Assembly: GCF_010728325.1 (NCBI RefSeq) | Contig: NZ_AP022570.1 | Coordinates: forward strand, 3,100,001-3,164,000 | From: Mycolicibacterium poriferae | GTDB taxonomy: Bacteria; Actinomycetota; Actinomycetes; Mycobacteriales; Mycobacteriaceae | DNA length: 64,000 bases | Direction of reading: 5' to 3' | In this document: positions 7,936 through 24,455 of the stretch, one piece after another | How positions within the stretch are numbered: the first letter of the stretch is position 1 | Layout: the number at the start of each line of letters is the position of its first letter | Made by a program: the position numbers and the translations under genes | Notes under the pieces: generated by a model | Told to the model about the DNA's origin: nothing | Seen by the model: only the letters and a program-made list of their open reading frames with translations | The model's database searches: none

Positions 7936-8002
7936 GCTGACCCCGTCAGACGCTGAACGCTGACCCGTCAGACGCTGAACGCTGACCCGTCAGGCGCTGA
8001 AC
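7936..8002. repeat. Three tandem 22-23 bp repeats spanning the stop codon of the monooxygenase gene
   Basis: Units at 7936-7958 (23 bp), 7959-7980 and 7981-8002 share the sequence GCTGACCCGTCAGACGCTGA plus AC. The last unit overlaps the final codons and TGA stop of the minus-strand gene ending at 7990. The copies downstream of the gene therefore duplicate its terminal codons together with the stop codon. A single-base insertion distinguishes unit 1 and a G/A change distinguishes unit 3. Confidence 0.9.
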
Positions 8003-9517: not shown

Positions 9518-10498
9518 TCAGGCCGGCATCGGCTTGCGTAGGCCGGCCCGCAGCGCGGCCAGCCCGCGGTCGGTGGCTTCGGCCGCCGCGGGGACCACCG
9601 CAGCGAAGTTGACGAACGCGTGCACCATCGTCGGCGAGTTGTGCAGCTCGACCGGCACTCCGGCCGCGGCGAGCAGTTCGGCGTAGCGCGCACCGTCATC
9701 GCGGATCGGGTCGTGTTCGGCGGTACCGATGTAGGCAGGTGGCAGCCCGGACAGGTCGGCGGTGTTCGCCGGAGCCAGCGTGGGCGGCAGCGATGCCGGT
9801 TCGGTGATGTCCATGCCGGCCGGCAGATACCAGTGCAGGAAGGCGGCGACGACGTCGCGGTCGAGGATCGGCGCGTCGACGTTCTCCGACATCGACGGCA
9901 GCGACATGTCCGCGGTCGTCGAGGGATACCACAGCAGCTGGAACGCCAGTGCCGGGCCACCGTTGTCGCGGGCCCGCTGCGTCACCACCGCCGACAGGTT
10001 GCCGCCGGCCGAATCGCCGGCCACCGCAATGCGTGCCGGGTCGCCGCCGAGTTCGGCGGCGTGCTCGGCCACCCACTGCAGCGCCGCCCATGCGTCCTCG
10101 ACACCGGCCGGGAACGGGTTCTCCGGGGCAAGCCGGTAGTCGACCGACACGACGATGGCCTCGGCGCCGATCGCGTGGGCGCGCGCCACGCCCTCGTGGG
10201 TGTCCAGGTCGCCGACCGACCAGCCGCCACCGTGGTAGTACACGACGACGGGCAGGTCATCGAGCTGGTCGACCGGCGGCCAGTAGATGCGGACCGGGAT
10301 GTCGGTGACATCGGCGAAGCCGACGGTGCGTTCCTCGATCCGCATCGGGGGCAGCGATTCGGGCGGTGGCGCGAGCACCCGGAGCTTCTCGCGCGCCACC
10401 TCGACGCCGTCGTCGGCGGTGAAGTGCAACGGAAACGCGTCCAGAATGTCCTTCAAAGCCGGATCGATCTGCGGTCGCTGGGTCACGGAGTCCGTCAT
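9518..10498 (-). CDS. lipH: Hormone-sensitive-lipase family esterase, LipH-like
   Basis: This is an alpha/beta-hydrolase of the HSL (group IV) esterase family, 326 residues. The oxyanion motif HGGGW is at residues 89-93 and the nucleophile elbow GDSAG at 161-165 (Ser163). The acidic member is probably in GTAEHDPIRDDG and the histidine in MVHAFVNF. No signal peptide is seen, so it should be cytoplasmic. It lies 4 nt downstream of a paralogue (10503-11438), matching the lipI-lipH pair of M. tuberculosis (Rv1400c-Rv1399c), from which the symbol is taken. The physiological ester is not known; a product of the adjacent monooxygenase is a reasonable guess. Confidence 0.88.
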   Translation of the reverse strand: MTDSVTQRPQIDPALKDILDAFPLHFTADDGVEVAREKLRVLAPPPESLPPMRIEERTVGFADVTDIPVRIYWPPVDQLDDLPVVVYYHGGGWSVGDLDTHEGVARAHAIGAEAIVVSVDYRLAPENPFPAGVEDAWAALQWVAEHAAELGGDPARIAVAGDSAGGNLSAVVTQRARDNGGPALAFQLLWYPSTTADMSLPSMSENVDAPILDRDVVAAFLHWYLPAGMDITEPASLPPTLAPANTADLSGLPPAYIGTAEHDPIRDDGARYAELLAAAGVPVELHNSPTMVHAFVNFAAVVPAAAEATDRGLAALRAGLRKPMPA

Positions 10499-10502
10499 GG
10501 CC

Positions 10503-11438
10503 TCACGTTAGCGCGGCACGCAAGCGGGCCAGGCCACGATCGGCGGCCGCGGTCGCGGCCGGCACCACCCCGGCGTAGCCCAGGTAGCCATGCACCAGCG
10601 ACTCGGCATTGTGCAGTTCGACAGCCACCCCCGCACCGGCCAGCAACTCGGCGTAGCGAATCCCGTCGTCACGCAGGGGGTCGTGCCCGGCCACAGCGAT
10701 GTAGGTGGCCGGCAGCCCGGCCAGATCACCGCGCGCGGGCACCAAGGTGGCCGGCGGGGCGGACATGTCGACGTCGGCTCCGCTGAGGTACCAGCGTGTG
10801 AAGCCACGGCACGCCGCCGCGTCGAGCACCGGCGCGCCGGCATTCTCGGCGAACGACTCCAGCGACGTGTCGAAGGTGGTCGACGGATACCACAGCAGTT
10901 GGTAGCGCAGCGGTGTCCCTGCGTCGCGGGCCAACTGCGCCATGACGGCGGCCAGATTTCCTCCCGCCGAGTCACCGGCCACCGCGACCCGGCCGGGATC
11001 GGCGCCCAACTCGGCGGCGTGGCGCAATACCCACCGGGTGACAGCCCACGTGTCGTCGACCGCGGCGGGGTAGGGATGTTCGGGGGCCAACCGGTAACCG
11101 ACCGACACCACCAGCGCGTCGCCGCCCGCGGCGTGCATGCGGGCAGCGCCGTCATAGGTGTCGAGATCGCCGACCGACCACCCGCCGCCGTGGATGAAGA
11201 CCACCACCGGCAGGACGTCCGCCGGCGTCGCCGGCCGGTAGATGCGCACGGGGACGGGGCCGGCCGGTCCCTCGACGGTACGGTCGACGGCGCTCACCTC
11301 CGGATGTACGGCCTTGCGGGGCAGATCGGCGAATCGCTGCCGGGCCGGTTCGGGTCCGCCGTCGGTGGTGAGCTGGAACGGCACGGCATCGAGCACTGTG
11401 CGCAGAACCGGATCCACTGTGGTGCGGGCGACAGCCAT
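10503..11438 (-). CDS. lipI: Hormone-sensitive-lipase family esterase, LipI-like
   Basis: This 311-residue paralogue of the neighbouring esterase has HGGGW at residues 83-87 and GDSAG with nucleophile Ser157, then AGHDPLRDDG and LVHGYLGY for the Asp and His. The two share the layout and many blocks (for instance YRLAPE and LLWYPSTT), so they arose by tandem duplication. The start MAVARTTVDP at 11438 is supported by a -10 box 7 nt upstream. It is the first gene of the unit that ends with the Baeyer-Villiger monooxygenase. Confidence 0.87.
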   Translation of the reverse strand: MAVARTTVDPVLRTVLDAVPFQLTTDGGPEPARQRFADLPRKAVHPEVSAVDRTVEGPAGPVPVRIYRPATPADVLPVVVFIHGGGWSVGDLDTYDGAARMHAAGGDALVVSVGYRLAPEHPYPAAVDDTWAVTRWVLRHAAELGADPGRVAVAGDSAGGNLAAVMAQLARDAGTPLRYQLLWYPSTTFDTSLESFAENAGAPVLDAAACRGFTRWYLSGADVDMSAPPATLVPARGDLAGLPATYIAVAGHDPLRDDGIRYAELLAGAGVAVELHNAESLVHGYLGYAGVVPAATAAADRGLARLRAALT

Positions 11439-11445
11439 GACAGGC

Positions 11446-11451
11446 AGGGTA
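11446..11451 (-). promoter_or_regulatory. -10 box (TACCCT, minus strand) before lipI
   Basis: On the minus strand TACCCT stands 7 nt before the ATG at 11438. The spacing suggests a leaderless transcript covering lipI, lipH and the monooxygenase gene. Confidence 0.4.
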
Positions 11452-11546
11452 GCCCCCCACGGCAGAGCCGTTTCGCCGACAATCGGTCTCACCACACCAT
11501 GACATGGGCCGACACCGGCCGACATCGACCATGTGAGGACACCCGG

Positions 11547-12413
11547 GTGAGACTTCTGCGCCGCCACGCCACACCGGAAGCCGTTCGGACGCGGCCGATC
11601 ACGCTCGCCCCGTTGACGGTGCTGGAACTGGGTCCGCCCGAACTGGTCGCCTGTGCGGCCGAAGCCGGTTATGACGGCGTCGGCTTGCGATTGATCCGGG
11701 CCACCGAGCAGGAGCCGGTGCGGCCCACCCTGGGGCAGACGCCGACCATCCGCGAGACCCGCCGACGACTCGACGCCACAGGCCTTTTCGTCCTGGACGT
11801 GGAGGTGCTGCGGCTGCGGCCCGACACCCGCGTACGCGAGGAGTTCGGCGCTGTCCTCGAGACCGCGGCCTACCTCGGCGCGGGTCAGGCGTTGGTGACC
11901 GGGAACGACCCGGACCATTCCCGCCTGGCGGACAACCTCGCCGAACTCGCCGAGTTTGCCGCGCAGTTCGGTGTCCGAGCGAACCTGGAGCCGATGCCGT
12001 GGACCGACGTTCGGGATCTCGCGGAGGCGACGTCGATTCTGCGGGCCTGCCACGCCGGCTCGGTGGGCGTGCTGGTCGACGCGTTGCACTACGACCGGAC
12101 TGCGACGACACCGGATGACCTGCAGGCGCTGCCGGCCGACTGGATCAACTACGTCCAGATCTGCGACGGTCTGTCACCGCGTCCCACCTCGGTCGACGAG
12201 CTGCGCTTCCAGGGCCGCAACGCCCGGCTGCTGCCGGGGGAGGGATGCATCGATCTGGTGGACATGTTGCAGGCGCTGCCCGGTGTCCCGGTGAGCATCG
12301 AGGCGCCGGTCCAGTGGCGCGCGCCTGCGGGAGTCCGGGCCAGGGCGGCGTTGCGGGCCGCGCGTCAGGTGGTCGGGCGCGCCGACGCCGACCGCGTAAC
12401 GCTGTCGGCGTGA
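11547..12413 (+). CDS. Sugar phosphate isomerase/epimerase-like TIM-barrel protein
   Basis: The 288-residue product resembles the xylose-isomerase-like TIM-barrel superfamily: LELGPPELVACAAEAGYDGVGL at the start, LDVEVLRL in the second strand, AVLETAAYLGAGQALVTG, ANLEPMPWTDV with a probable metal-binding Glu, VGVLVDALHY with a probable metal-binding Asp and His, and VQICDG. These positions match the metal-ligand pattern of sugar epimerases and endonuclease IV relatives, but the substrate cannot be told. GTG at 11547 has GAGGAC upstream. The reading frame is open far upstream, antisense to lipI, which is a shadow. The next gene follows after 31 nt and is probably co-transcribed. Confidence 0.75.
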   Translation: MRLLRRHATPEAVRTRPITLAPLTVLELGPPELVACAAEAGYDGVGLRLIRATEQEPVRPTLGQTPTIRETRRRLDATGLFVLDVEVLRLRPDTRVREEFGAVLETAAYLGAGQALVTGNDPDHSRLADNLAELAEFAAQFGVRANLEPMPWTDVRDLAEATSILRACHAGSVGVLVDALHYDRTATTPDDLQALPADWINYVQICDGLSPRPTSVDELRFQGRNARLLPGEGCIDLVDMLQALPGVPVSIEAPVQWRAPAGVRARAALRAARQVVGRADADRVTLSA

Positions 12414-12444: not shown

Positions 12445-13464
12445 GTGACCGCCGGTTCGACGGTGTTGCGGCCCTTGCGGTCCCGGCGATCGGCGCGCGC
12501 GGTGGTCGGTGTGGTCGGCCTGCTGCTGCTGGCCTGCGCGACTGTCGGGGTCGGTGCGCACTTCCTCGGGCCGGTCAGCACCGTGGTGACGTTGGCGGCG
12601 TCGTTCACCCCGTTGTGCGTCGCCCTCGCGGCGGTGGCCACCCTGATGTTGGTCGCTGCGCGGTGGCGATACCCGGCGCTGGCAGGGGTGCTGGTGGTCA
12701 CGATGGGGGTGGCGTCCCAACTGCCGCTGTACATCGGTCAGGTCGGGCCGGTCTCCGACACCGCGCAGCCGGTGCTGCGACTGTTCCAGGCCAACATTCG
12801 GCTGGGTGAGGCCGATGCGGCGGCGCTGGCGCGGACGGCGCGCTCCGAACGCATCGACGTGCTCACCGTGGCCGAGCTGACCGCACCGGCTGCCGAACGC
12901 CTGGCAGCGGCGGGGCTCGAGCGGACGCTGCCCTACACCTACCTGGAGCCCAAGGAAGGCGGCGGCGGGGAGGGCATCTACTCGCGACACCCGCTGGCCG
13001 AAACCGCGAAAATACCTGGTTTGCAACACAACAACCTGCGGGCGACGATCGACGTGCCCGGCGCCGGGCCGGTAGCGATCTATGCGTTGCACCCGGTTCC
13101 GCCGTATCCGTTACCGGCGTGGCGATGGGCCACCGAGCTGGACCGGATCGGTGACGCCCTGGCCGCCGAGACGATGCCGCTCGTGGTGGGTGCGGACTTC
13201 AACTCCACCTACGACCACGAGCGGTACCGGAACCTGCTGCGCCTGCGCGGCCCGGGCGACGCGCCGCTGGTGGACGCCGCCGAGTATCTCGGTATCGGCA
13301 TCGTGGCCACCTATCCCGCCGGGCGGTGGTATCCCGCGGTGCTCGCGATCGACCGGATCCTGGCACGCGGAGCCACGCCGATGTCGATGCGGCGGGTGGA
13401 CATCCCGGGATCGGATCACCACGGCCTGATCGGTGATCTCGGGCTGGACAGCGTTCAGCACTGA
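12445..13464 (+). CDS. Membrane-anchored endonuclease/exonuclease/phosphatase family protein
   Basis: The 339-residue protein starts with about three hydrophobic helices (residues ~20-100), followed by an EEP-fold domain. RLFQANIRLGEAD is the usual first strand with its Asn, LTVAELT carries the metal-binding Glu, VVGADFNST holds the catalytic Asp-x-Asn pair, and GSDHHGLI the terminal Asp-His. The active domain is probably extracytoplasmic. It could be a phosphodiesterase acting on lipids, cyclic nucleotides or nucleic acid; sequence alone does not decide. It overlaps the 3' end of the convergent flippase-NRPS fusion gene by 10 nt. Confidence 0.78.
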   Translation: MTAGSTVLRPLRSRRSARAVVGVVGLLLLACATVGVGAHFLGPVSTVVTLAASFTPLCVALAAVATLMLVAARWRYPALAGVLVVTMGVASQLPLYIGQVGPVSDTAQPVLRLFQANIRLGEADAAALARTARSERIDVLTVAELTAPAAERLAAAGLERTLPYTYLEPKEGGGGEGIYSRHPLAETAKIPGLQHNNLRATIDVPGAGPVAIYALHPVPPYPLPAWRWATELDRIGDALAAETMPLVVGADFNSTYDHERYRNLLRLRGPGDAPLVDAAEYLGIGIVATYPAGRWYPAVLAIDRILARGATPMSMRRVDIPGSDHHGLIGDLGLDSVQH

Positions 13465-16400
13465 AGACGGGCTGCGGCAATCAGCTCGCAGACGCGGCCG
13501 ATGTGCGGCTCGCGGATCACCGAGTCGTGGTCGCAGTTGATCCGCTCGATCTGCAGCCGCCCGGTGAGCAGGTGGGGCCAGACCCGGGCGTCGTCGCTGT
13601 TGAAGGCGCTGAGCACCAACAACGTCGGCCCCGCGTAGGGCCGTGGCCGGTGCAGTCGACCGACCCGCACACCGACTTCCCGCAGCGCCTCGATCCTGCG
13701 CTCGGGCCTGGTGCCGGCGATACCCGCCAACGGCAGCCACAGCCTGCGCCGCCACAGCACCGAACGGGGGATGGGAGCCTGCTCGAACAGGGCCGACGTC
13801 ACCTCCGGGAGGAACTTCCGGGCCGCCCGAACGGTCCGGGCCGGCAGGAATGGATCCAGCATGGCAACCAGGTCGACCCGGTGGCCGAGCTCGGTCAACC
13901 GGTTGGCCACCTCGGTGGCGATGAACGCCCCCAGCGAATGTCCGACCAGCGCGTAGGGCCCCTCGGGTTGCACGGCGAGCAGTTCTCGCAGGTGCCGCCC
14001 GGCCGCCCGGCCGACCGTCCAGTCGGGAAAGGCGCGGTTCTCCAGACCCTGGGGTTGGAAGGCGACCACCGCGGTATCGGTGCCGACGTGCTCGGCCAGC
14101 GGCGCGAAGGTCAGCGCGGAGGCGCCGGCACCGGCGAAGCAGAACAGGGTCCGGGAGGTGTGCGCAGAAGGGCTGCGCAGCACCACTGTCGTCGGCGCGG
14201 GCCGGAGCGCGGTTGCGGTGGCGCCCCCGCTCCGGCGGGTCGCGAGACGCTCGGCCAACTGCGCAACCGTCGGTGCCGACGCCAGCTCCGAGGGGCTCAG
14301 CGTCACCCCGTACCGTGTGGCGAGGCAGGCGGTCAGCTGCGCGACGTTCAGCGAATCACCGCCCAGCGCAACGAAGTTCTCGCTACGTCCGACGGCGTCG
14401 AGGCGCAGGATGGCTGCCCACTCCGCGGCGATCTCGGTCTCCAGCCCCGGCCGTGGCGGTTCGATCGGCCCTCGTTGCGGCGCAGGCAGATCCTGACGGT
14501 TCACCTTTCCCCGCTCGTTGCGGGGCAGTGCCTCCACCAACACGATGTGGGTGGGCACCATCCAGGCGGGCAGCCGGCTGTGCAGCTGTGCCCGGATGTC
14601 GGCGACGGCCGGTGTCCGCATCCCCGGGGTGGGGGCCGCGTAGCCGATCAGCACCGGGGCGTCGGAGTCCCCTCCGGCGATGACGAGTGCCTCCCGGATG
14701 CCTGGGCATTCCAGCAGCGCCGTCTCCACTTCGGCAGGCTCGACGAGGTAGCCGCGGATCTTCACCGCGGCGTCCATCCGCCCCAGGATGACCAGCGTGC
14801 CCGTCCCGGTGATCCGCGCGCGATCATTGGTGACGAACGTTGCACTGCCGTCGCTGTTTCCCACGAACGTCGTCGCCGCGCTGTGCGGATTGAGGTAGCC
14901 CGCAGCGAGGTAGCGCGAAGTCACCGTGAGACGGCCGTCCTCGTCCACGCCCAACGTCTTGTGGGGGACGGCGATTCCGGCTGGGACCACCCCGGCGGGC
15001 ACCTCGTCGTCGGGCCCGATGTCGTAATGGGCGATGCCGAGAGTCTCCGACGAGCCTGCCCAGTTGGTCACGACCGCGTTCGGTGCCACTCGGCGAGCCT
15101 CTCGGACCATGTTGCTGTACAGCGGTTCTCCGGTGGTGACGATGCGCCGGACCCGGTCGAGGGGCCTGCGGCCGTCCCCGGCCTCGGCCAGTGACTGCAG
15201 GAATGACGGGGTGCACATCACGACCTCGGCCTCGGAGTCGGCGAGGCGTGTCAACACATCGTCGGCAGTCTGTGCGCGCGGGTCGAGCGCGATGATCTCG
15301 GCGCCGGACAGCAGGGCCCCGATCGCCACGTTGAGCCCGGCGGCGAAACTCACCGGCATACACAGCGCGACGCGGGCGCCCTCGACGATGCCGAAGCGGT
15401 CACGATGCAGGATCCAGTCGCTGAGCCAGGTGCCGTGCGCATGCAGTACCGCCTTGGGCTCACCGGAGGACCCCGACGTGAACTGGATGCTGGTCACCGT
15501 GTCGACAGTCAGGGTGGCGGACTCGACGGGGCCGGTCAGCGGTGGCAGCTCGCGGCCGGCCGGCCACACCCGGGTGCCGGTGATGGACAGCGTGGGGGTT
15601 TCCCCGCCGACGACGACGGTGTCCAGCACCACCCCGCGTGCCCTCAGGACATCGACGAGCTGTTGCATGCGGTCGTGCGGCAGGTTGGCGTCCAGCGGAA
15701 CCAGGGGGGTGGCCGCTGCGAAGCTGCCGAGGATGACGGCCGCGGTGTCGGCGCTGAGGTCCCCGACGAGCGCCACCGCGGCGTCGGGGTCGTCGCGGAG
15801 GCGCAGCTGCGCGGTCCAGCGTTGGGCCGCGGCGCTCAACTCGGCGTAGGTGACGGTGTCGCTTCCGCTCCGCAGGGCGATGCGGTCGGAAAGTCGTTCG
15901 GCGACTTCCCGAAACCGCTCGGTCACCGACTGGTATGCCAGGGCGCCTTCACCGGTGTCGTCAGGACCTGCGGACGTTCGATGGGCGGGCGCGGGGGTAG
16001 TTGACGGTTCCGCGGGCGGCGTCGACGTGAAGCTGAAGCTGCGCACCAGGGCGATGGTGGGTCCGAGCAGGATCGCCGTGCAGACGAACTCGGCGACCAG
16101 GTAGGTGTAGCCGACGCCGTCGATGCCCCAGCGTGGGGTCGACAGGATCGAACCCGCGACGACGACGACGCCGAGCACCACCTGCGACGTGACGGCCAGG
16201 CGCAGCCGGCGCTGCAGCCGCGCCAGCGCCGTGTAGATGGTCATGACCGCCAGCGCGGGCAGCGTGAGCGCCATCAGGCGGATCAACCGGGTGCCCTCCT
16301 CGGCGTACTGCGGTCCCAGGATGCCCAGGATCAGGGGAGCCGCGACGAGCAGGCCGAGGCAGCTGGCCGCGGCCGCGCCGCCGCACATCACCACGAATCG

Positions 16401-17399
16401 CCGCGTGCACGAACGCAGGTCGGCGCCGGGCGTCGACGCGGTGGCGATGAAGGGCGCGGCGGTCGCGCCGATCAGTACACCCAGTGTGTTGACGACCAAC
16501 CAGCACATCGAGAAGTACGCGTTCATCTCGGTACCGAGTTGGGCGACCACGATCAGCGGCACCAACAGCGGCACGGTGACGTCGACGGAGTTGATCGCAT
16601 ACGAGCTGGCGAAGAAGTGGAACAGCTCCCGTCGCGGCGGCAGCGCCGGCTGTCCGGCCCGGCGCCGCGACTCCCGCCTGATCACCACCACGGCGATGAC
16701 CCCGGTGATGACGGCGGCCGGCAACACCCAGGACCAGACGATGGCGGCGCCGGTGGCCACCGGGATGAGAGCGATCACCGCAAGCAATTTGGTGGTGGAC
16801 TGGCCGATGTTCTTCGTCGCGATCATGCGGGCGCGACCGAGTCCGACGAGCACCTGGTCCTGCAGTGCGTAGACCGACAGCACCCCGACGGCGACCGGGA
16901 ACAGCGCCATCTCCACCGGGTGGGGGAACAGCTCATCGCGCGGCCCGACCAGGACGAAGACCACGCCGAAGAGCACTGCGGCGCCGAGCGCGAAAGTGGT
17001 GCCGTGGCGCACCAGCCGATGGGTGTCCCGCCCGGCCAGCGGCAGGAAGCGCTCGTACAGATTGCCGAGGCTGAAATTGGCCAGGATCGCGATCAGCGTT
17101 GCGGAGGAGATGATGGCCGACGCGCGCCCCACCTCGGCGGCGTCGTAACCACGGGCGGCGGCGGTCCAGAAGGCGAACCCGAGGACACCGGTGGCGGCGC
17201 TCGAACTCATCACCGCGAGGATGTCCATCCCCAGTGCCCGGCCGTGCAGTCGGCGCCGGTCGGACGCCGGGGTGACGGCCGTGCAGTTCGCCGCAACGCC
17301 GCGGATGTCGAGTTCCGCGTCGGTGTCGTGGGTGAAACCGTCAGCCGCAGAGCCTGTTTGGCCACCGCGGTGGCCGGGCGCCCGGCTGGTCGTCGACAT
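13455..17399 (-). CDS. Flippase-like membrane domain fused to NRPS-like adenylation, carrier and thioesterase domains
   Basis: This 1314-residue protein has an unusual architecture. Residues ~55-455 form about 12 membrane helices like polysaccharide/MATE-type flippases. After a Pro/Thr-rich linker (~457-482) comes an adenylation domain: A3 core FTSGSSGEPK (640-649), A5 NWAGSSETLG (779-788), A7-like TNDRARI (857-863), A8 GRMDAAVKIRGYLVEP (873-888), A10 NERGKVNRQDL with Lys965. A carrier domain follows with LGGDSL and phosphopantetheine site Ser1016, then a type I/II thioesterase: GHSLG Ser1155, Asp1182 (27 residues later, as in surfactin-type thioesterases) and probable His1291. There is no condensation domain. 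The A4 region reads MPVSFAAG and lacks the Asp that binds an alpha-amine, so a non-alpha-amino carboxylic acid may be the substrate. GAGGA precedes the ATG. Two IdeR-like boxes lie upstream. Divergent from a glycosyltransferase operon; role inferred as export and acylation of its glycan. Confidence 0.9.
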   Translation of the reverse strand: MSTTSRAPGHRGGQTGSAADGFTHDTDAELDIRGVAANCTAVTPASDRRRLHGRALGMDILAVMSSSAATGVLGFAFWTAAARGYDAAEVGRASAIISSATLIAILANFSLGNLYERFLPLAGRDTHRLVRHGTTFALGAAVLFGVVFVLVGPRDELFPHPVEMALFPVAVGVLSVYALQDQVLVGLGRARMIATKNIGQSTTKLLAVIALIPVATGAAIVWSWVLPAAVITGVIAVVVIRRESRRRAGQPALPPRRELFHFFASSYAINSVDVTVPLLVPLIVVAQLGTEMNAYFSMCWLVVNTLGVLIGATAAPFIATASTPGADLRSCTRRFVVMCGGAAAASCLGLLVAAPLILGILGPQYAEEGTRLIRLMALTLPALAVMTIYTALARLQRRLRLAVTSQVVLGVVVVAGSILSTPRWGIDGVGYTYLVAEFVCTAILLGPTIALVRSFSFTSTPPAEPSTTPAPAHRTSAGPDDTGEGALAYQSVTERFREVAERLSDRIALRSGSDTVTYAELSAAAQRWTAQLRLRDDPDAAVALVGDLSADTAAVILGSFAAATPLVPLDANLPHDRMQQLVDVLRARGVVLDTVVVGGETPTLSITGTRVWPAGRELPPLTGPVESATLTVDTVTSIQFTSGSSGEPKAVLHAHGTWLSDWILHRDRFGIVEGARVALCMPVSFAAGLNVAIGALLSGAEIIALDPRAQTADDVLTRLADSEAEVVMCTPSFLQSLAEAGDGRRPLDRVRRIVTTGEPLYSNMVREARRVAPNAVVTNWAGSSETLGIAHYDIGPDDEVPAGVVPAGIAVPHKTLGVDEDGRLTVTSRYLAAGYLNPHSAATTFVGNSDGSATFVTNDRARITGTGTLVILGRMDAAVKIRGYLVEPAEVETALLECPGIREALVIAGGDSDAPVLIGYAAPTPGMRTPAVADIRAQLHSRLPAWMVPTHIVLVEALPRNERGKVNRQDLPAPQRGPIEPPRPGLETEIAAEWAAILRLDAVGRSENFVALGGDSLNVAQLTACLATRYGVTLSPSELASAPTVAQLAERLATRRSGGATATALRPAPTTVVLRSPSAHTSRTLFCFAGAGASALTFAPLAEHVGTDTAVVAFQPQGLENRAFPDWTVGRAAGRHLRELLAVQPEGPYALVGHSLGAFIATEVANRLTELGHRVDLVAMLDPFLPARTVRAARKFLPEVTSALFEQAPIPRSVLWRRRLWLPLAGIAGTRPERRIEALREVGVRVGRLHRPRPYAGPTLLVLSAFNSDDARVWPHLLTGRLQIERINCDHDSVIREPHIGRVCELIAAARLQC

Positions 17400-17670: not shown

Positions 17671-18549
17671 GTGACGGATATCGCGCCAGACCCGAAACCT
17701 TACGCTGAGGCAAACTTCGGGCACTTTCGGCACGACATGCACCGAAGCGTCGGCGCCACGGCGACATCGGTCAACCACCGCGCTGGTGACGGTGGGGTCG
17801 CCGGGATGGGCCGGCCCAGGGTCACCGTCGTGCTCCCCACCCGCAACGAAGCCCGCAACCTGCCGCACGTGGCCGAGCGGATGCCACCGGTCGACGAACT
17901 CGTCGTCATCGACGGCGGCTCGCAGGATGGAACCGCCGACGTCGCGCGCCGGTTGTGGCCACACGCCACGGTGATCGAGCAGACCCGCAGCGGCAAGGGA
18001 AACGCACTGGCCTGCGGCTTCCGCGCGGCCACGGGCGACATCATCGTCATGATCGACGGGGACGGCTCCACCGATCCGGCCGAGATCCCGCGGTTCGTCG
18101 AGGCGCTGGTGCAGGGCGCGGATCTGGCCAAGGGCAGTCGATTCTGCCGGGACGGCGGCAGTGATGACATCACCCGATTCCGCAGGCTGGGCAACTACGG
18201 CTTGAACTGGCTCGTCAACCGTATCTTCCGCACGCAGTTCAGCGATCTGTGCTACGGCTACAACGCGTTCTGGCGGCGCAACCTCGACTGTCTCGATCTC
18301 CCGTGCACCGATGTTCCCGAGCCGCAGTGGGGTGACGGGTTCGAGATCGAGACCGTGATCAACGTCCGTGCCGCCAAGAGCGGGTGGCTGATCCGTGAGG
18401 TCGGCAGTTTCGAGGGCAAGCGGTTGCACGGCAACAGCAACCTCAATGCCGTCACCGACGGGATGCGGGTGCTGCGCACGATCGGGCGCGAGCACCGCGA
18501 GCGGGTCGGCGGCGCTCGCGTGCCGGCCGGCGCGGGGTGGTCGCCGTGA
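17671..18549 (+). CDS. GT2-family glycosyltransferase (DPM1-like), first gene of the glycan operon
   Basis: The 292-residue protein is a GT-A fold family 2 transferase. After a variable ~48-residue N-terminus come VTVVLPTRNEARNL, LVVIDGGSQDGT and GKGNALACGFRAATGD, then the metal-binding DGDGS (Asp129 and Asp131) and a C-terminal QWGDGFEIETVINVRAAK segment. The pattern is that of polyprenyl-phosphate-mannose/glucose synthase-like enzymes but without a C-terminal membrane anchor, so it may transfer to a lipid carrier at the inner membrane face. GTG at 17671 follows AGGAAG. The stop overlaps the next GTG start (GTGA), indicating coupling. Confidence 0.86.
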   Translation: MTDIAPDPKPYAEANFGHFRHDMHRSVGATATSVNHRAGDGGVAGMGRPRVTVVLPTRNEARNLPHVAERMPPVDELVVIDGGSQDGTADVARRLWPHATVIEQTRSGKGNALACGFRAATGDIIVMIDGDGSTDPAEIPRFVEALVQGADLAKGSRFCRDGGSDDITRFRRLGNYGLNWLVNRIFRTQFSDLCYGYNAFWRRNLDCLDLPCTDVPEPQWGDGFEIETVINVRAAKSGWLIREVGSFEGKRLHGNSNLNAVTDGMRVLRTIGREHRERVGGARVPAGAGWSP

Positions 18550-19499
18550 CAGTTCAGCCCACCGACACCGCAGCACCGGCCGTCGCTGCGGTGTCGATCA
18601 GCGTGGTGATCTGTTGCTACACCACCGAACGCCGCGCCGGCCTGGCCCGCGCGGTCGATTCGGTGGTGGCCCAACTCAGTGTCGGCGACGAACTGATCGT
18701 GGTCGTCGACGGCAACGACGCGCTGCATCGCGAATTGCGAACTCATGCGCCGTCTGGCGTCGTCGTGGTGGCCAACACTGCCAGCCGCGGGCTCTCCGGT
18801 GCGCGCAACACCGGTCTGCGGACCGCCTCCGGCGATGTGGTGGTCTTCCTGGACGACGACGCGGCGCTGCACCCGGCGGCGCTCTCCGGTGTGCGCGCGG
18901 CGTACCTCGACCCCGGCGTCGTGGGCGTCGGTGGCGCAGTGCATCCCGAGTGGCCTCGCGGCTCAGCACCGCGCTGGTTTCCGCCCGAGTTCGGCTGGGT
19001 GGTCGGTTGTGACTACCGCGGGCTGCCGTGCGACGGCGCCGACATCCGCAATCCGATCGGTGCCGCCATGGCCGTGCGACGGGCCGAACTCGTCGGCATC
19101 GGGGGTTTCTCGGATCGGCTCGGCCGCGTCGGCACTCTGCCGACCGGGTGCGAGGAGACCTTGATGGGCATCGAGCTGGTGCGGCGTCACCCGACCGCCA
19201 AGATCGTCCGGCATGCCGCGTTCTCGGTGTCGCACACGGTGTCCGCCGACCGGGTGACGTTGTCCTACTTCCTGCGCCGCTGCTTTCACGAGGGACGAAG
19301 CAAAGCGATCCTGACCCGCCTGTGCGGTCAGCGGTCCTCGCTGGCCAGCGAGCGCAGGTACACCACGCAGACATTGCCCACCGGGCTGTGGCACGCGCGA
19401 CGGCGGCCCGGCCGGATGCTGGCACTGCTCGCCGGGCTGATGACCACCGCGGGGGGATACCTGATGGGACTGTTTCAGACTGCGTCACAGGGGGAGTGA
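18546..19499 (+). CDS. GT2-family glycosyltransferase, second gene of the glycan operon
   Basis: The 317-residue transferase has SVVICCYTTERRAGL for the nucleotide-sugar fold, ASRGLSGARNTGLRTASGD, and the metal site LDDDAAL (Asp103-105). The acceptor half includes VGVGGAVHPEWP, NPIGAAMAVRRAELVGIGGF and TGCEETLMGIEL, a layout seen in rhamnosyl/galactosyl-type polysaccharide transferases. A hydrophobic stretch near the C-terminus (MLALLAGLMTTAGGYLMGL) could anchor it in the membrane. The start at 18546 is preferred over an in-frame GTG at 18537 because it forms a GTGA junction with the preceding gene. Confidence 0.86.
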   Translation: MTVQPTDTAAPAVAAVSISVVICCYTTERRAGLARAVDSVVAQLSVGDELIVVVDGNDALHRELRTHAPSGVVVVANTASRGLSGARNTGLRTASGDVVVFLDDDAALHPAALSGVRAAYLDPGVVGVGGAVHPEWPRGSAPRWFPPEFGWVVGCDYRGLPCDGADIRNPIGAAMAVRRAELVGIGGFSDRLGRVGTLPTGCEETLMGIELVRRHPTAKIVRHAAFSVSHTVSADRVTLSYFLRRCFHEGRSKAILTRLCGQRSSLASERRYTTQTLPTGLWHARRRPGRMLALLAGLMTTAGGYLMGLFQTASQGE

Positions 19500-19502
19500 G
19501 CG

Positions 19503-20165
19503 ATGACCACTGACACCGACTGGCTCGCGGATGCCCGGATCACGGGACGGGTGGCCCTGGTCCCGCTGCTCTACTTCGCCGCCGAGTGGGTGGTCTCCGC
19601 GTCGTGGCGCGGGTACTACGGCTACCGCGAGGACGTGGTCGGGCCGCTGGGAGCGGCGTTCTGCGGACCGCAGGGAAACTGGCCCTGCAGCGATCTCTAC
19701 CACGTGATGAACGTCGCTCTGGTGGCGACCGGGGCGGCGGTGGCGATCGTCGCCGCCGGCTTCTGGCGGCAGCGGGTGACCGATCGCGGGCACGCGCTCC
19801 TGCTGATCGTCGCGGGCATCGGGCTGGCGTGCTCGGGCGTGGTGACCGTGAACGTCGACTATGCGTGGAATCTGACCGCCACCATGGTTTTCCTGACGCT
19901 GGGCGCCGTCGGCAGTGTCCTCGTCGCCGTCAGCTCGACCTCGGCGATGTCGGTCGAACGCCGGGCGATCGCGGTGCTCGCGGGCGCGCTGAGCCTGGTG
20001 GGACTGTTCAGCTTCCTCGGCGGGCACCAGGTGTTCGGCGCGGGTGGCGCCCAGCGGATGGCGACATACGGCGTCCTGGTCGCAGTGATCGCTCTGGGCA
20101 CCACCGGCCTGCGGACTCGCCATTCCGCTGCGGCCGGCGCGGTACTCGTCGAGGAGCGGCGATGA
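19503..20165 (+). CDS. DUF998-type polytopic membrane protein
   Basis: The 220-residue protein has about six hydrophobic helices. The features GAAFCGPQGNWPCSDLYHVMNV and YAWNLTATMVFLTLG fit the DUF998 family, whose biochemical role is not established. It lies 3 nt after the second glycosyltransferase and overlaps the GH16 gene by the ATGA junction, so it is co-translated with the glycan genes. A role in membrane assembly or transport of the glycan is inferred from context only. Confidence 0.75.
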   Translation: MTTDTDWLADARITGRVALVPLLYFAAEWVVSASWRGYYGYREDVVGPLGAAFCGPQGNWPCSDLYHVMNVALVATGAAVAIVAAGFWRQRVTDRGHALLLIVAGIGLACSGVVTVNVDYAWNLTATMVFLTLGAVGSVLVAVSSTSAMSVERRAIAVLAGALSLVGLFSFLGGHQVFGAGGAQRMATYGVLVAVIALGTTGLRTRHSAAAGAVLVEERR

Positions 20166-20977
20166 AGTTCGGCGCGCGTCGTGCGGTCGCTGCGCTGAGC
20201 GTGCTGGGGCTGTGTGGATGCGCGATGCACGACACCATCGGACATGCGCAACCGGCCGGTCCCGTCGCCGTGTTCAGTGACGACTTCACCGGCCCCGCAG
20301 GAACGCCGCCAGGGGGTCCGTGGCGGTTCGACACCGGTGGCGGCGGTTGGGGCAACAACGAAGTGCAGGTCTACACCGACGATCCCGGCAACGTCAGCCT
20401 CGACGGGGCCGGGCACCTGGCGATCGTGGCGCGCGGCGACGCCGACGGCAGCAACATCACGTCGGCGCGGGTGACGACCAAGGGAACCGTCGAGTTCACC
20501 TCCGGGCGCGCCGAGGCCCGCATCGCGCTGCCCGCCGGGGCGGGCCTGCACCCCGCGTTCTGGCTGCTCGGCAGCGACGTCGACCAGGTCGGCTGGCCCG
20601 CCTCCGGGGAGATCGACGTCATCGAGACGCTGAACCTCGCCGACGAATACCACACCGGTGTTCACGTTCCGCGCCAGGGATCGGCTCGGGGACAGGAGAT
20701 CTCGGCGTCCGGACCCGCTCCGTTCCCGCTGGCCGGCGAGTTCCACACCTACTGGGTCGAGAAGACCCCCGGGCGCATCGTCACCGGCATCGACGACCTG
20801 ACGCTGTTCACCGTCACACCCGCCGATCTGGCGCCCGAGAGCACGTGGGTGTTCGACGGACCGGTGTTCTTGCTGCTCAATGTCGCCGTCGGGGGGAACT
20901 GGCCCGGTCCACCTGATCTCACCACGCCGAATCCCTCGACGATGCTCGTCGACTGGGTTCGGGTGAGCGCACTGTGA
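20162..20977 (+). CDS. Exported GH16-family beta-glucanase-like protein (probable lipoprotein)
   Basis: The 271-residue product starts with a basic then hydrophobic leader ending LGLCGCAM; Cys20 could be lipidated, although residue -2 is an unusual Cys. The mature part is a GH16 jelly roll: GWGNNEVQVYT (62-72) is typical of laminarinase-like members, and the catalytic motif GEIDVIE (149-155) supplies nucleophile Glu150, Asp152 and acid/base Glu155. Members cleave or transglycosylate beta-1,3 or beta-1,3-1,4 glucans or galactans. Inside a glycosyltransferase operon it probably trims or releases the polymer made by its neighbours. The ATG at 20162 overlaps the upstream stop. Confidence 0.86.
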   Translation: MKFGARRAVAALSVLGLCGCAMHDTIGHAQPAGPVAVFSDDFTGPAGTPPGGPWRFDTGGGGWGNNEVQVYTDDPGNVSLDGAGHLAIVARGDADGSNITSARVTTKGTVEFTSGRAEARIALPAGAGLHPAFWLLGSDVDQVGWPASGEIDVIETLNLADEYHTGVHVPRQGSARGQEISASGPAPFPLAGEFHTYWVEKTPGRIVTGIDDLTLFTVTPADLAPESTWVFDGPVFLLLNVAVGGNWPGPPDLTTPNPSTMLVDWVRVSAL

Positions 20978-22254
20978 GGCCGGCGCCGGCGCTCGACCCC
21001 GCGATGCCACCACAGGCCCGGCCGACGTGGTCCAAAGCGCGGTGGATAGGCCTGCTCGACCTCGACGAGTGCACCCCCGACGCCGACGGCGCGGTGGAGT
21101 TCGTCCCGCGCCACGCCGAGGGCTACGGACTCGCCCGGGTGCTGATGCGCCGCGGGACCGAGCCCCTGGGCTTCGTCGAGGCGTCTGTGCGGGACGGCCG
21201 GGTGCGTCTGCCCGCCGCTGCGGTTCCGAACGATCCAGACCCCGCGGAGATCGCGCCGCTGGCGCCGATGTCGGTGGTCGTATGCACCCGTGACCGGCCC
21301 GACCAACTGACCGATGCGCTGACGTCGATCCTGGCACTGGACTACCCGGACTTCGAGGTCGTCGTGGTGGACAACGCCGCCCGCACCGGGGCCACCACCG
21401 CTGTGGTCGAGAAGCTGTCCGACTCCCGCCTCAGACTGGTGGCCGAACCGCGGCCCGGGTTGTCGAGAGCCCGAAACGCCGGGCTCAGGCAAGCCCGTCA
21501 CCAGTTCGTCGCGTTCACCGACGACGACGTCGTGGTCGATGGTCAGTGGCTGCGCGGGATCGCCCGCGGATTCGGCCGGTCACCGCGGGTGTCGTGCGTC
21601 TGCGGACTCATTCCCAGCGGTGAGCTGCGGACCCCGGCACAGGCGTATTTCGACCAGCGCGTCTCCTGGGCGGGTTCACTGCGGCCGCGGCTGTTCAGCC
21701 TGGCCGAGCCGCCCGAGGACCTTCCGCTGTTCCCGTTCCAGGTCGGTCGCATCGGGGCAGGCGCCAATTTCGCTGTCCGGCGCGACCGCATCGCAGCCCT
21801 CGGCGGTTTCGACGAGGCGCTGGGCGCCGGCACCGCGGCGCAGGGCGGCGAAGACCTGGACATGTTCTTCCGGGTGGTCACGGCGGGCGACACGCTTGCC
21901 GCCGAACCCTCGGCCATCGTCTGGCATCGCCACCGCAGCGACAACGACGCGCTGCTGCGGCAGGTCCGCGGCTACGGGGTGGGTCTGGGCGCCTGGTTGA
22001 CCAAGGTGGGCTCGGACCGGTCCAACCGGCAGCTGGCCTGGCGGATCCTGCGGCGGCGCCTCGGCTCGTCGCTGCGTGCCGGGGCGGACTACGGCGCGAT
22101 CATGGCGATGCCGTACTCCATGCCCGGATTCCGCGACGACCTGCCCGGCGCCCTCGGTCGAACCGAGGTGATGGCGGTGCTGAGCGGTCCGACGGCGCTG
22201 TGGCGCGGCCGCCGGGCCGTCACCGGCGCCACGACGGCGGCGGCGCCTCGATGA
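20974..22254 (+). CDS. GT2-family glycosyltransferase with extra N-terminal domain, third of the glycan operon
   Basis: In this 426-residue protein the first ~97 residues form a separate acidic domain (LLDLDECTPDADG and RHAEGYGLARVLMRRG). The GT-A domain follows with MSVVVCTRDRPDQLTDAL, VVVVDNAARTG, RPGLSRARNAGL, and the metal site TDDDVV (Asp183-185). The acceptor side has GRIGAGANFAVRRD and GGEDLDMFFRV with the likely catalytic base. This N-terminal plus GT2 layout recurs in actinobacterial exopolysaccharide clusters. GTGA and ATGA junctions tie it to both neighbours. Confidence 0.85.
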   Translation: MRPAPALDPAMPPQARPTWSKARWIGLLDLDECTPDADGAVEFVPRHAEGYGLARVLMRRGTEPLGFVEASVRDGRVRLPAAAVPNDPDPAEIAPLAPMSVVVCTRDRPDQLTDALTSILALDYPDFEVVVVDNAARTGATTAVVEKLSDSRLRLVAEPRPGLSRARNAGLRQARHQFVAFTDDDVVVDGQWLRGIARGFGRSPRVSCVCGLIPSGELRTPAQAYFDQRVSWAGSLRPRLFSLAEPPEDLPLFPFQVGRIGAGANFAVRRDRIAALGGFDEALGAGTAAQGGEDLDMFFRVVTAGDTLAAEPSAIVWHRHRSDNDALLRQVRGYGVGLGAWLTKVGSDRSNRQLAWRILRRRLGSSLRAGADYGAIMAMPYSMPGFRDDLPGALGRTEVMAVLSGPTALWRGRRAVTGATTAAAPR

Positions 22255-24455
22255 CGACAACCGTTGCGGCACAGACCGGCGACCCCGCGCCGACGGTCGC
22301 CGCTGCGGGGCACGCGGTCCGTCGGCTGCCGTCGATGCCGTTGCGCATGGCCGACCTCGCCGTCCTCGGCGCGGCGGCCGGCGTGGTCGCGATGACGGCC
22401 CTGCCCAGCGTCATTCGGGCCGGTGCGCTGGCGGTGTTCATCGCCCTCGGCCCGGGGGCGGCGGTGCTGACCTGGGTGCGCATCCCGCGCCGGGCACTGC
22501 TGTCCACTGTTCCGGTGCTGGGCATCGCCCTCGTCACGATGGTGACGATCGCTGCGATGTGGTCCTACCGCTGGAGCCCACCGGACATCCTGTGGGTGCA
22601 GGTGGTCGCTGTCGCGGGCAGCAGCGCCTGGTGGTACTACCGCCGCGGCACCAGCGTGCTGGAGGCGGCACGTCGCTGGCGGTGGCGCACCGTCCCCGGC
22701 GTTGCACACCGCGGCACATCCGTTGTGCGGCGCCACTTCTCGTTGCTGCTGAGCGGAGCGGCCGTGGCGCTCTGGGCGGCCGCGGTGCCCGGGTTGCCCG
22801 GAGTGGAGGCCAGCTACTACGGTCTGTTGTTCTCCGGAACCGGCCCGCTGCTCGCCGTGTCCATGGTGCTGACGAGTTGGGCGCTACTGGTCGCCCTGCG
22901 GGACCGGACGCTGGTGCCGGCCGCCGCGGCGATCGGCGCGGCGATCGTCGTCGCCCGGGTCACCACGTTCGCCGCCACCGACGTGCCGCTGTGGGACTGG
23001 ACGTACAAGCACCTCGCGGTCGTGGACTACCTCATGGTGCACGGCCGGATCATGGCCGACGGCACCGACATCTATGCGCAGTGGACCGCGTTCTTCGCGG
23101 TCTGGGCGTGGTTCTGCGAGGCCACCGGGTTGCCGGCGATGACCGTCGCGCACGTTTTCGCACCGGTCATCCACGTATTGATCGCGTTCACCGTGTACAG
23201 CGCCGCGCGCGTCGTCGGACGGTCGCGCCGCACCGCACTCGCCGCCGCGTACCTCGCCGAGATCGCCAACTGGGTCGGCCAGGACTATTTCGCCCCGCAG
23301 GCCTGGGCCCTGGTGCTGGGCTTCGGAACGCTGGTGCTGCTGCTGGCCTCGCCCCGCAGCCGGGCCTGCGGAGTGCTGAGTGTCGTCGTGTTCGCCGCGA
23401 TGGTCCCGACCCATCAGCTGACGCCGTTCTGGATCGTGGCCGTGGCCTCCGTGCTGTGTCTGTTCAAGCGAGCGCGGCCCCGCTGGGCGGCGCTGGCCAT
23501 GGCCGGGGTGGCACTGGCCTACCTGGTGTTGAACCTCGAAGCGGTGCTGCCCTACGGACTGCTGTCCGGCGGCAGCCCGCTGGACAACGCCGCCAGCAAC
23601 GTGCTGACATCCGGGCTGCCCGCCAAGGACTTCACGTCGGCGGTGGTGCGCACACTGTCGGTGGTGGTGATCCTCAGCGCGGTCGGCTGCGCCATCTGGT
23701 GCCGGCGACACAAGCGACCGGTGTTCACACTGGCAGTGTTGGCGTTCAGTTCATTCGGGTTGCTGTTCGGGCAGAGCTACGGCGGCGAGGCGATCTTCCG
23801 CGTGTACCTGTACGCACTGCTCGGCTGCGCCCTGCTCATCGCGCCGGCGCTGGTCGCTGCGCTGGACACGGCCGGTCGCGGGGCGCGGACCGTGCTCGTC
23901 AGGACGGTCGCGGCGGTCGGTGTGACCGCGGCGGCGGTGGCCGGCCTACACGGCTACGTGGCGCTGTGGCCGATGATCTACCAAACTCGCGAACAGGTCG
24001 AGTTGATGGACCGCATCACCGACGGCGCCGACGTGCGGACGCGGCTGGTGATGCTGCGCCTCGGCGGTATGCCGACCCGGCTGAACGCCAGCTATGCCGA
24101 GGTCACGCTGTACAACCACTATTTCGATGCGACGATCGGCTTCGACCTGTGGGACTACCGGGACCCGAAGCTGCCCGAGTTGAAGGCGCAGTTCCCCACT
24201 GCCGAGGACATCAAGACCCTCGACGACTACGCGCAGTACGACGCATTCCGGGCCTACGTGCTGTTCAGCGAGCAATCCGACAAGGCTGTTCGCTACTACG
24301 GCGACTTCCGTCCCGAAGCGGCCGACATCATGAAGCAGGCGCTGCGCAGTTCCCCCAACTGGACGGTGTACTACGAAGACGGGGAGACCGTGGTGTTCCG
24401 CACGGCCCACGACTGGGACGTGCCGCCACAAACCACCGCAGAAGGTGCTCGCTGA
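22251..24455 (+). CDS. Large polytopic membrane protein, possible glycan polymerase or GT-C enzyme
   Basis: The 734-residue protein has perhaps 12-14 membrane helices in the first ~560 residues and a soluble C-terminal ~160-residue tail (from about QVELMDRITDGADV). An extracytoplasmic loop containing DVPLWDWTYKHLAVVDYL recalls GT-C glycosyltransferases or Wzy-like polymerases, but no diagnostic motif was identified, so the function is inferred from being the last gene of the glycosyltransferase operon. ATG at 22251 overlaps the preceding stop; earlier in-frame codons from 22200 are read within the previous gene and were excluded. Confidence 0.78.
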   Translation: MTTTVAAQTGDPAPTVAAAGHAVRRLPSMPLRMADLAVLGAAAGVVAMTALPSVIRAGALAVFIALGPGAAVLTWVRIPRRALLSTVPVLGIALVTMVTIAAMWSYRWSPPDILWVQVVAVAGSSAWWYYRRGTSVLEAARRWRWRTVPGVAHRGTSVVRRHFSLLLSGAAVALWAAAVPGLPGVEASYYGLLFSGTGPLLAVSMVLTSWALLVALRDRTLVPAAAAIGAAIVVARVTTFAATDVPLWDWTYKHLAVVDYLMVHGRIMADGTDIYAQWTAFFAVWAWFCEATGLPAMTVAHVFAPVIHVLIAFTVYSAARVVGRSRRTALAAAYLAEIANWVGQDYFAPQAWALVLGFGTLVLLLASPRSRACGVLSVVVFAAMVPTHQLTPFWIVAVASVLCLFKRARPRWAALAMAGVALAYLVLNLEAVLPYGLLSGGSPLDNAASNVLTSGLPAKDFTSAVVRTLSVVVILSAVGCAIWCRRHKRPVFTLAVLAFSSFGLLFGQSYGGEAIFRVYLYALLGCALLIAPALVAALDTAGRGARTVLVRTVAAVGVTAAAVAGLHGYVALWPMIYQTREQVELMDRITDGADVRTRLVMLRLGGMPTRLNASYAEVTLYNHYFDATIGFDLWDYRDPKLPELKAQFPTAEDIKTLDDYAQYDAFRAYVLFSEQSDKAVRYYGDFRPEAADIMKQALRSSPNWTVYYEDGETVVFRTAHDWDVPPQTTAEGAR

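Follow-up and report, generated by a model that had tools for sequence, protein, structure and literature searches.

A mycobacterial flippase fused to an adenylation–carrier–thioesterase module, with a predicted role in placing aromatic acids on a lipid-linked glycan

The window analyzed here is a stretch of 64,000 nucleotides from Mycolicibacterium poriferae (contig NZ_AP022570.1), taken from a genome of 5.93 Mb whose nearest named relatives belong to Mycobacterium and Mycolicibacterium. On its reverse strand, one open reading frame encodes a protein in which a predicted flippase is followed by an adenylation–carrier–thioesterase (A-T-TE) module. The gene and its domains are arranged as follows.

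13455..17399, reverse strand: fused flippase–adenylation–carrier–thioesterase gene, 1314 aa, ATG start, frame open throughout
15990..17267, reverse strand: predicted MOP flippase domain, residues 45-470 (structural model, WzxE as top match, PF01943 in homologue P0030)
14505..15914, reverse strand: adenylation domain, residues 496-965, with the invariant Lys965 (PF00501 and PF13193)
14244..14435, reverse strand: carrier domain, residues 989-1052, with the invariant Ser1016 (PF00550)
13515..14153, reverse strand: thioesterase domain, residues 1083-1295, with Ser1155/Asp1182/His1291 (PF00975, PF12697)

Analysis of the protein with Pfam (E≤0.001) revealed AMP-binding (residues 496-836), AMP-binding_C (890-965), PP-binding (989-1052) and Thioesterase (1083-1188) domains, no condensation domain in the 1314 residues and no match in the N-terminal half. 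For that half, the homologue P0030 passes the Polysacc_synt family PF01943 (30.6 bits, cut-off 28.2), while the Gordonia otitidis homologue (L160) stays under the same cut-off with 25.2 bits and the L119 homologue gives no match. An AlphaFold2 model of residues 45-470 (pLDDT 88.4, 20 sequences) displays about 12 long helices, counted by eye, in a MOP-like fold. Its best match among solved structures is WzxE (TM 0.71-0.74, E 1.2e-7), and all 50 PDB matches listed for it belong to the MOP superfamily (WzxE, MurJ, MATE); none of these solved structures features the fused layout. Residues 45-470 are predicted to form a flippase of the Wzx/MurJ/MATE type, and transport of a lipid-linked glycan would fit the gene context. 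An even number of membrane helices would leave the module and the N-terminus on one face of the membrane, which by analogy is the cytosolic one. The Pfam domains, the model and the WzxE match bear out the original prediction of a polytopic flippase joined to an A-T-TE module devoid of a condensation domain.

The catalytic residues that had been read from this sequence alone are also confirmed by the homologues. Lys965, Ser1016, Ser1155 and Asp1182 are invariant in 13/13 aligned homologues, and His1291 is kept in 12 of them, the thirteenth being truncated. All five are invariant in 16/16 diverse A-T-TE proteins, which include fused and unfused relatives.

A fused frame might also result from an assembly or sequencing artefact, or belong to a decaying gene. 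Two of the 17 fused copies found in the genus are indeed damaged: the G200 copy (L073) carries one in-frame TGA, and the G056 copy (L026) has a frame broken near the thioesterase, in a genome that also carries an undamaged stand-alone A-T-TE roughly 9 kb from it. A protein search returned 479 relatives, and 73 of the 120 matches listed span 87-100% of the query at 52-99% identity. The fusion is present in 17 of the 297 genomes of the genus, and the catalytic residues of all domains are kept. We rejected an artefact or gene decay because the fusion is conserved across relatives, and consider its probability negligible; the fusion of a flippase and an A-T-TE module on one chain is real, and a frameshift or assembly error joining two genes is excluded.

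Genomes of the genus were scored with E-value thresholds of 1e-120 for A-T-TE, 1e-40 for the flippase, 1e-20 for PF01959 and 1e-60 for AP11 (a supplier candidate described below), retaining per genome the best three, five, up to four and eight candidates, respectively. Flippase matches of at least 64% identity are all fused (17/17), and 29 further matches (32-42% identity) are stand-alone flippases. The A-T-TE module, carried by 35/297 genomes, also gives 21 stand-alone matches at 47-50% identity. Of the named loci, 14 out of 78 carry the fusion; examples come from M. neoaurum, including strain ATCC 25795 at locus L136, and from M. vaccae, M. iranicum and M. austroafricanum.

The two halves also occur as neighboring genes. 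Gordonia otitidis, G. lacunae and G. sputi carry them as separate genes on one strand, flippase first and A-T-TE second as in the fused protein, with an overlap of 4 nt (from coordinates in G. otitidis, from frames read by eye in the other two). These pairs, with the fused genomes, dismiss the idea that the halves would always be separate, unrelated genes. The flippase tree unites the 17 fused proteins and the three from Gordonia in a single clade (100/100), separate from the main clade of stand-alone mycobacterial flippases, which has 20 members. In the A-T-TE tree, built by a quick method, the four Gordonia proteins of this kind fall outside the 38 mycobacterial proteins; the 21 stand-alone ones among the latter are monophyletic (100) and cluster with four fused proteins (99). 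This topology suggests a single fusion with later loss of the flippase half; two separate fusions may account for it as an alternative.

Outside the genus, among 298 genomes of the order, A-T-TE was found in 14, the flippase in 19 and both in six, and in all six the two genes lie at most 10 kb apart (in G409 the A-T-TE match near the flippase is partial, with full-length copies elsewhere in the genome). The flippase follows A-T-TE by about 0.9 kb in Rhodococcus globerulus, R. triatomae, Gordonia amarae and a Gordonia metagenome-assembled genome (MAG). Given the Gordonia pairs and this co-location, the functions of flippase and A-T-TE are linked without fusion too. In Gordonia jacobaea (L163, 9119-12457), a GT2 glycosyltransferase resembling gt15 of the window (see below) shares one open frame of 1149 aa with A-T-TE; by its sequence, the module is here fused to a glycan-assembly enzyme of another kind.

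Regarding the substrate, the aspartate that amino-acid-activating domains carry in motif A4 is replaced by Ala686 in the fused protein (aligned to the LgrA motif sfdgs).

15342..15344, reverse strand: codon of Ala686, at the A4 position that corresponds to Asp235 of amino-acid-activating domains; this residue switches with the supplier gene

The substrate class of the adenylation domain was not readable from sequence alone, using NCBIfam models and the LgrA alignment. The original prediction had drawn a parallel with the Dlt system, of which the protein would be a one-protein analogue; taken literally, this would mean activation of D-alanine or another amino acid. Both would supply an acyl group from a carrier at a membrane protein, for use on a surface polymer, and DltA models do score moderately, with 135 bits, far below their cut-off of 476. 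DltB is an MBOAT acyltransferase, whereas the membrane half here is a MOP flippase. The A4 aspartate is missing in 16/16 diverse A-T-TE members aligned, and genes supplying an aromatic acid track the module, as described hereafter. We therefore rejected D-alanine on the substrate evidence (low DltA scores, no A4 aspartate, supplier profile and residue 686) and hold the amino-acid reading to be very improbable. The accompanying proposal of an unusual, non-amino-acid carboxylic acid is supported by the supplier profile and the pocket residue Ala686, which point to a hydroxy- or aminohydroxybenzoic acid.

The first candidate supplier gene sits 1 kb from the fused gene.

11592..12413, forward strand: AP11, QuiC-like TIM-barrel protein, likely protocatechuate supplier (PF01261; homologous part of the open reading frame 10590-12413)

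The sole NCBIfam match of AP11 at E≤1e-5 is QuiC, a 3-dehydroshikimate dehydratase, with 40.3 bits against a cut-off of 1200 that was set for a two-domain protein; because the score lies below this cut-off, we call AP11 QuiC-like and not a member of the family. Active-site residues of QuiC include Glu134, Asp165, His168, Gln191 and Arg210 (PMC7442255). AP11 is identical at these positions, which are invariant in 15/15 homologues, and so keeps five of the seven active-site residues covered by the alignment; its Glu239 is probably the positional equivalent of Glu237.

AP11 was detected in 28 of the 297 genomes, every one of them with A-T-TE. A second supplier candidate, DHQ synthase II (DHQS-II; 3-amino-4-hydroxybenzoate synthase-like, PF01959), was detected in seven genomes and is absent from that of the window (PF01959, E≤1e-20). 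The two sets do not overlap and together make up exactly the 35 A-T-TE genomes, while neither gene occurs in any of the 262 genomes of the genus without A-T-TE. In several stand-alone species AP11 is distant from A-T-TE (1.2 Mb in G034, on another contig in G161, and also in G238), so linkage alone does not explain the co-occurrence.

All five fused genomes of the DHQS type carry DHQS-II upstream of the flippase match, in the same orientation and at a distance of 25-73 nt. A GriI/FevI-like aldolase adjoins this gene in four of the five; in G302 the aldolase instead neighbors another DHQS-II copy, some 7 kb off. A 4-hydroxybenzoate-hydroxylase-like protein is found in three. The DHQS-II cassette also precedes A-T-TE in G. 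sputi, G. otitidis (on a contig where it comes without the hydroxylase), both Rhodococcus species, G. amarae and the Gordonia MAG. At locus L164, the scores reached 421 bits for BagC/FevH (cut-off 750) and 231 bits for BagB/FevI (cut-off 500), and the cut-offs of the broader DHQS-II and ADH-synthase subfamilies were passed. Neither AP11 nor DHQS-II was found in the fetched flanks of the Geodermatophilus, Frankia and Curtobacterium A-T-TE loci. According to two Streptomyces studies, GriI/GriH-like pairs make 3-amino-4-hydroxybenzoate and an adenylation enzyme is proposed to activate the product (PMC10179220, PMC6692506); the gene of this enzyme comes after the synthase gene in the clusters described in the first (PMC10179220).

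To compare the two supplier types, every column of the module was scored over 31 AP11-type and seven DHQS-type mycobacterial proteins, with at least 20 and at least six letters per column, respectively. Residue 686 was the best separating column of 796, with alanine in 31/31 AP11-type and glycine in 7/7 DHQS-type proteins. Glycine also occupies this position in 6/6 Gordonia and Rhodococcus proteins having the DHQS-II cassette; G. jacobaea and G. lacunae were excluded since no supplier was present in the fetched flank. In the resulting set of 44 rows, the classes have no letter in common at six columns (612, 686, 710, 744, 787 and 1236), and only 686 has a single letter on each side. Residues 786, 787 and 728, which rank 2, 3 and 9, are presumably at or near other pocket positions by GrsA numbering (235, 278, 328 and 329), of which the A4 match alone was seen in an alignment. 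When the tree was computed with the 686 region left out, two changes were required for the supplier and two for residue 686, and their labels coincide in 44/44 rows.

We consider this co-change the best indication that the adenylation domain would bind whichever acid the AP11 or DHQS-II route produces. Because the supplier genes track A-T-TE and residue 686 switches with the supplier, the likely substrate of the module is a 3,4-substituted benzoate, for which we infer protocatechuate in the type of the window and 3-amino-4-hydroxybenzoate in the DHQS-type relatives. It could instead activate some other carboxylic acid, AP11 and DHQS-II acting on a later or parallel step, for instance on the sugars of the glycan, in which case acylation coupled to the flippase would still hold. 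The TIM-barrel family of AP11 (PF01261) includes sugar isomerases and epimerases, IolI is among its PDB matches, and the adenylation class is, as said, not legible from the sequence. This alternative is made quite unlikely by the exact mutual replacement of two suppliers of different families, with a pocket residue switching along, and by QuiC being the only NCBIfam match of AP11 at E≤1e-5.

The genes around the fused gene include several of predicted glycan assembly.

12445..13464, forward strand: EEP12, membrane-anchored Exo_endo_phos protein, convergent with the fused gene (PF03372; VanJ 31 bits, below the cut-off of 700)
17671..18549, forward strand: gt14, GT2 glycosyltransferase, AglJ-like (PF00535; TIGR04182 125.5 bits, below the cut-off of 325)
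18537..19499, forward strand: gt15, GT2 glycosyltransferase, AglG-like (PF00535; NF041394 163 bits, below the cut-off of 440)
19503..20165, forward strand: DUF998 membrane protein (PF06197 32.3 bits, cut-off 30)
20162..20977, forward strand: GH16 glycoside hydrolase, putative lipoprotein (PF00722)
20974..22254, forward strand: gt18, GT2 glycosyltransferase (PF00535)
22302..24455, forward strand: GTC19, predicted GT-C fold membrane glycosyltransferase, nearest to oligosaccharyltransferases (fold searches)

Pfam and NCBIfam gave no match for GTC19, and the scan of its homologue P0207 was likewise empty. Fold searches, the only source for this assignment, place it near STT3, AglB and PglB; GTC19 is predicted to adopt a GT-C fold closest to oligosaccharyltransferases, a likeness of fold that does not imply glycan transfer to protein. 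EEP12 is repeatedly found next to the cluster, not only in mycobacteria but also in Gordonia, Rhodococcus and Geodermatophilaceae. Next to AP11, at 7990-9474 and 9518-11490 on the reverse strand, lie a PtlE-like monooxygenase, syntenic in several fused genomes, and two alpha/beta-hydrolase-type esterase open reading frames (esterases by eye).

Contexts were read for 17/17 fused loci, 22/29 stand-alone flippases and 21/21 stand-alone A-T-TE loci of the genus, several flanks ending at contig ends. Both gt14 and GTC19 are present in 16/17 fused loci, and at least one of gt14, gt15, gt18 and GTC19 occurs at 19 of the 22 stand-alone flippase loci. The link to a glycan exporter that had been proposed for the fused protein is thus upheld by the adjoining glycosyltransferases and GT-C protein and by the two-gene flippase/A-T-TE pairs of Gordonia. 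Curtobacterium loci harbor A-T-TE beside relatives of gt14, gt15, gt18 and GTC19, with no flippase match within the fetched flank. None of the gt14, gt15, gt18, GTC19 or flippase markers was found in the fetched flanks of the Frankia loci, one of which was scanned with Pfam. In a genome without A-T-TE (G192, locus L111), a weak match to the adenylation domain only (29%, 1475-2938) lies beside relatives of GH16, GTC19 and the flippase.

Based on these results, we propose a Wzx-type flippase fused to a module that would load protocatechuate (likely 3-amino-4-hydroxybenzoate in relatives) and transfer the aryl group to a lipid-linked glycan at the point of flippase uptake, a mechanism to which we give an even chance. 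AP11 would first convert 3-dehydroshikimate into protocatechuate, which the adenylation domain would adenylate and load onto Ser1016. In the cytosol, gt14, gt15 and gt18 are predicted to assemble a glycan on a polyprenyl-phosphate carrier. The thioesterase, likely on the cytosolic side, would then work as an acyltransferase onto this polyprenyl-linked glycan. Finally, the fused flippase would carry the aryl-bearing glycan across the membrane, where GTC19 may pass it to an outside acceptor. A mycobacterial precedent for such a carrier-thioesterase unit is Pks13, whose thioesterase transfers mycolate to trehalose (PMC11649247).

Several observations weigh against this proposal. AP11 is a remote relative of QuiC, in which Ser206 and Leu136 of QuiC are replaced by Gly208 and Met135 in 15/15 homologues, and the thioesterase might hydrolyze its acyl group instead of transferring it. 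Within the genus, 12 of the 35 genomes with A-T-TE gave no match to the flippase at E≤1e-40; outside it, this holds for eight of 14 such genomes at E≤1e-30. The 21 stand-alone mycobacterial A-T-TE loci, all read, are mostly without glycan markers and share no common glycan cluster. In G124, A-T-TE occupies the same chromosomal place with glycan genes near and no flippase there.

Another explanation would be that A-T-TE makes a small aryl metabolite, for example a catechol- or aminophenol-type ester acting as metal chelator or redox mediator, released by the thioesterase and exported in a MATE-like manner by the flippase half, the glycan genes glycosylating this metabolite or acting apart. Module and supplier persist together in the 12 genomes lacking a matching flippase, MATE drug transporters are also among the fold matches, and 3-amino-4-hydroxybenzoate goes into small metabolites in Streptomyces (PMC6692506, PMC10179220). 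An EryCIII-like GT1 glycosyltransferase adjoins six of the 21 stand-alone A-T-TE loci (L029, L032, L083, L086, L091 and L096), which form one tree clade. In three of the stand-alone loci, the neighbors scanned were transporters of the ABC and EamA types, a sodium/proton exchanger, a dihydroxyacetone kinase, a transposase and a single GT1-type glycosyltransferase. Set against this explanation are the best structural match to WzxE and the polysaccharide family PF01943, the related flippases that stand in glycan clusters without A-T-TE (19/22 loci), and the oligosaccharyltransferase-like GTC19 in 16/17 fused loci. We regard the small metabolite as unlikely, leaving it about a quarter of the weight because of the A-T-TE genomes without flippase, the marker-poor stand-alone loci and G124.

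The proposed acylation of a lipid-linked glycan combines features of several known systems. Like WzxE and other Wzx flippases (also MurJ and MATE), the fused protein is predicted to have the MOP fold and sits among glycosyltransferase genes, and one homologue scores above the PF01943 cut-off; it differs by its C-terminal A-T-TE module of cytosolic type. Aryl-acid arms are known from AsbC/AsbD of petrobactin synthesis and from mycobacterial FadD22, an adenylation–carrier protein for 4-hydroxybenzoate. These systems resemble the fused protein by the stand-alone loading of a benzoic acid on a carrier and, with AsbF, by a supplier dehydratase of the same broad fold; the fused protein differs in carrying thioesterase and flippase on one chain, with no polyamine or lipid partner genes adjoining. 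AsbF is the dehydratase of the petrobactin pathway (PMC7442255, PMC9324987).

The DHQS-type relatives share with the Streptomyces 3-amino-4-hydroxybenzoate pathways (GriI/GriH, FevI/FevH, AhbI/AhbH with AhbL2 or GriC) aldolase and DHQS-II homologues beside an adenylation domain. Those pathways yield small molecules, whereas a flippase and glycosyltransferases are neighbors here, and the genome of the window is devoid of DHQS-II. Pks13 shares the mycobacterial carrier-thioesterase unit moving an acyl group to a sugar (PMC11649247) but uses mycolic acid in a polyketide synthase context; transfer by the thioesterase of the fused protein is a prediction. For gt14 and gt15, the best NCBIfam models are AglJ and AglG of the haloarchaeal AglJ/AglG/flippase/AglB set, with scores below their cut-offs, and the fold of GTC19 is near AglB. 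To our knowledge, haloarchaeal AglJ/AglG/AglB glycosylation involves no A-T-TE. Together, gt14, gt15 and GTC19 form an archaeal-style glycosylation set in mycobacteria, which also occurs without A-T-TE. The Dlt system stands further off, given the aromatic substrate evidence and a MOP flippase partner instead of DltB; on the whole, the original prediction holds for the fused layout, the unusual acid and the glycan-exporter link, and falls short in its D-alanine comparison for the substrate. All parts of the protein are of known kinds; for their joined layout, or for an aryl-decorated mycobacterial glycan as predicted here, our searches of the open-licence PMC literature listed no description, judged by titles and the beginnings of abstracts.

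More broadly, we tentatively propose, at somewhat less than even confidence, an actinobacterial machine that would place catechol- or aminophenol-type acids on surface glycans at the mouth of a flippase, as one polypeptide in mycobacteria, with two supply routes swapped and the binding pocket re-tuned each time. If true, aromatic acids would join the chemistry of actinobacterial surface glycans, and a flippase would be coupled in one chain to the enzyme modifying its own cargo. A change of adenylation-domain substrate would be legible from one pocket residue, switched twice with the supplier gene, and the resulting aryl coat could bind metals, cross-link oxidatively or serve as an adhesive.

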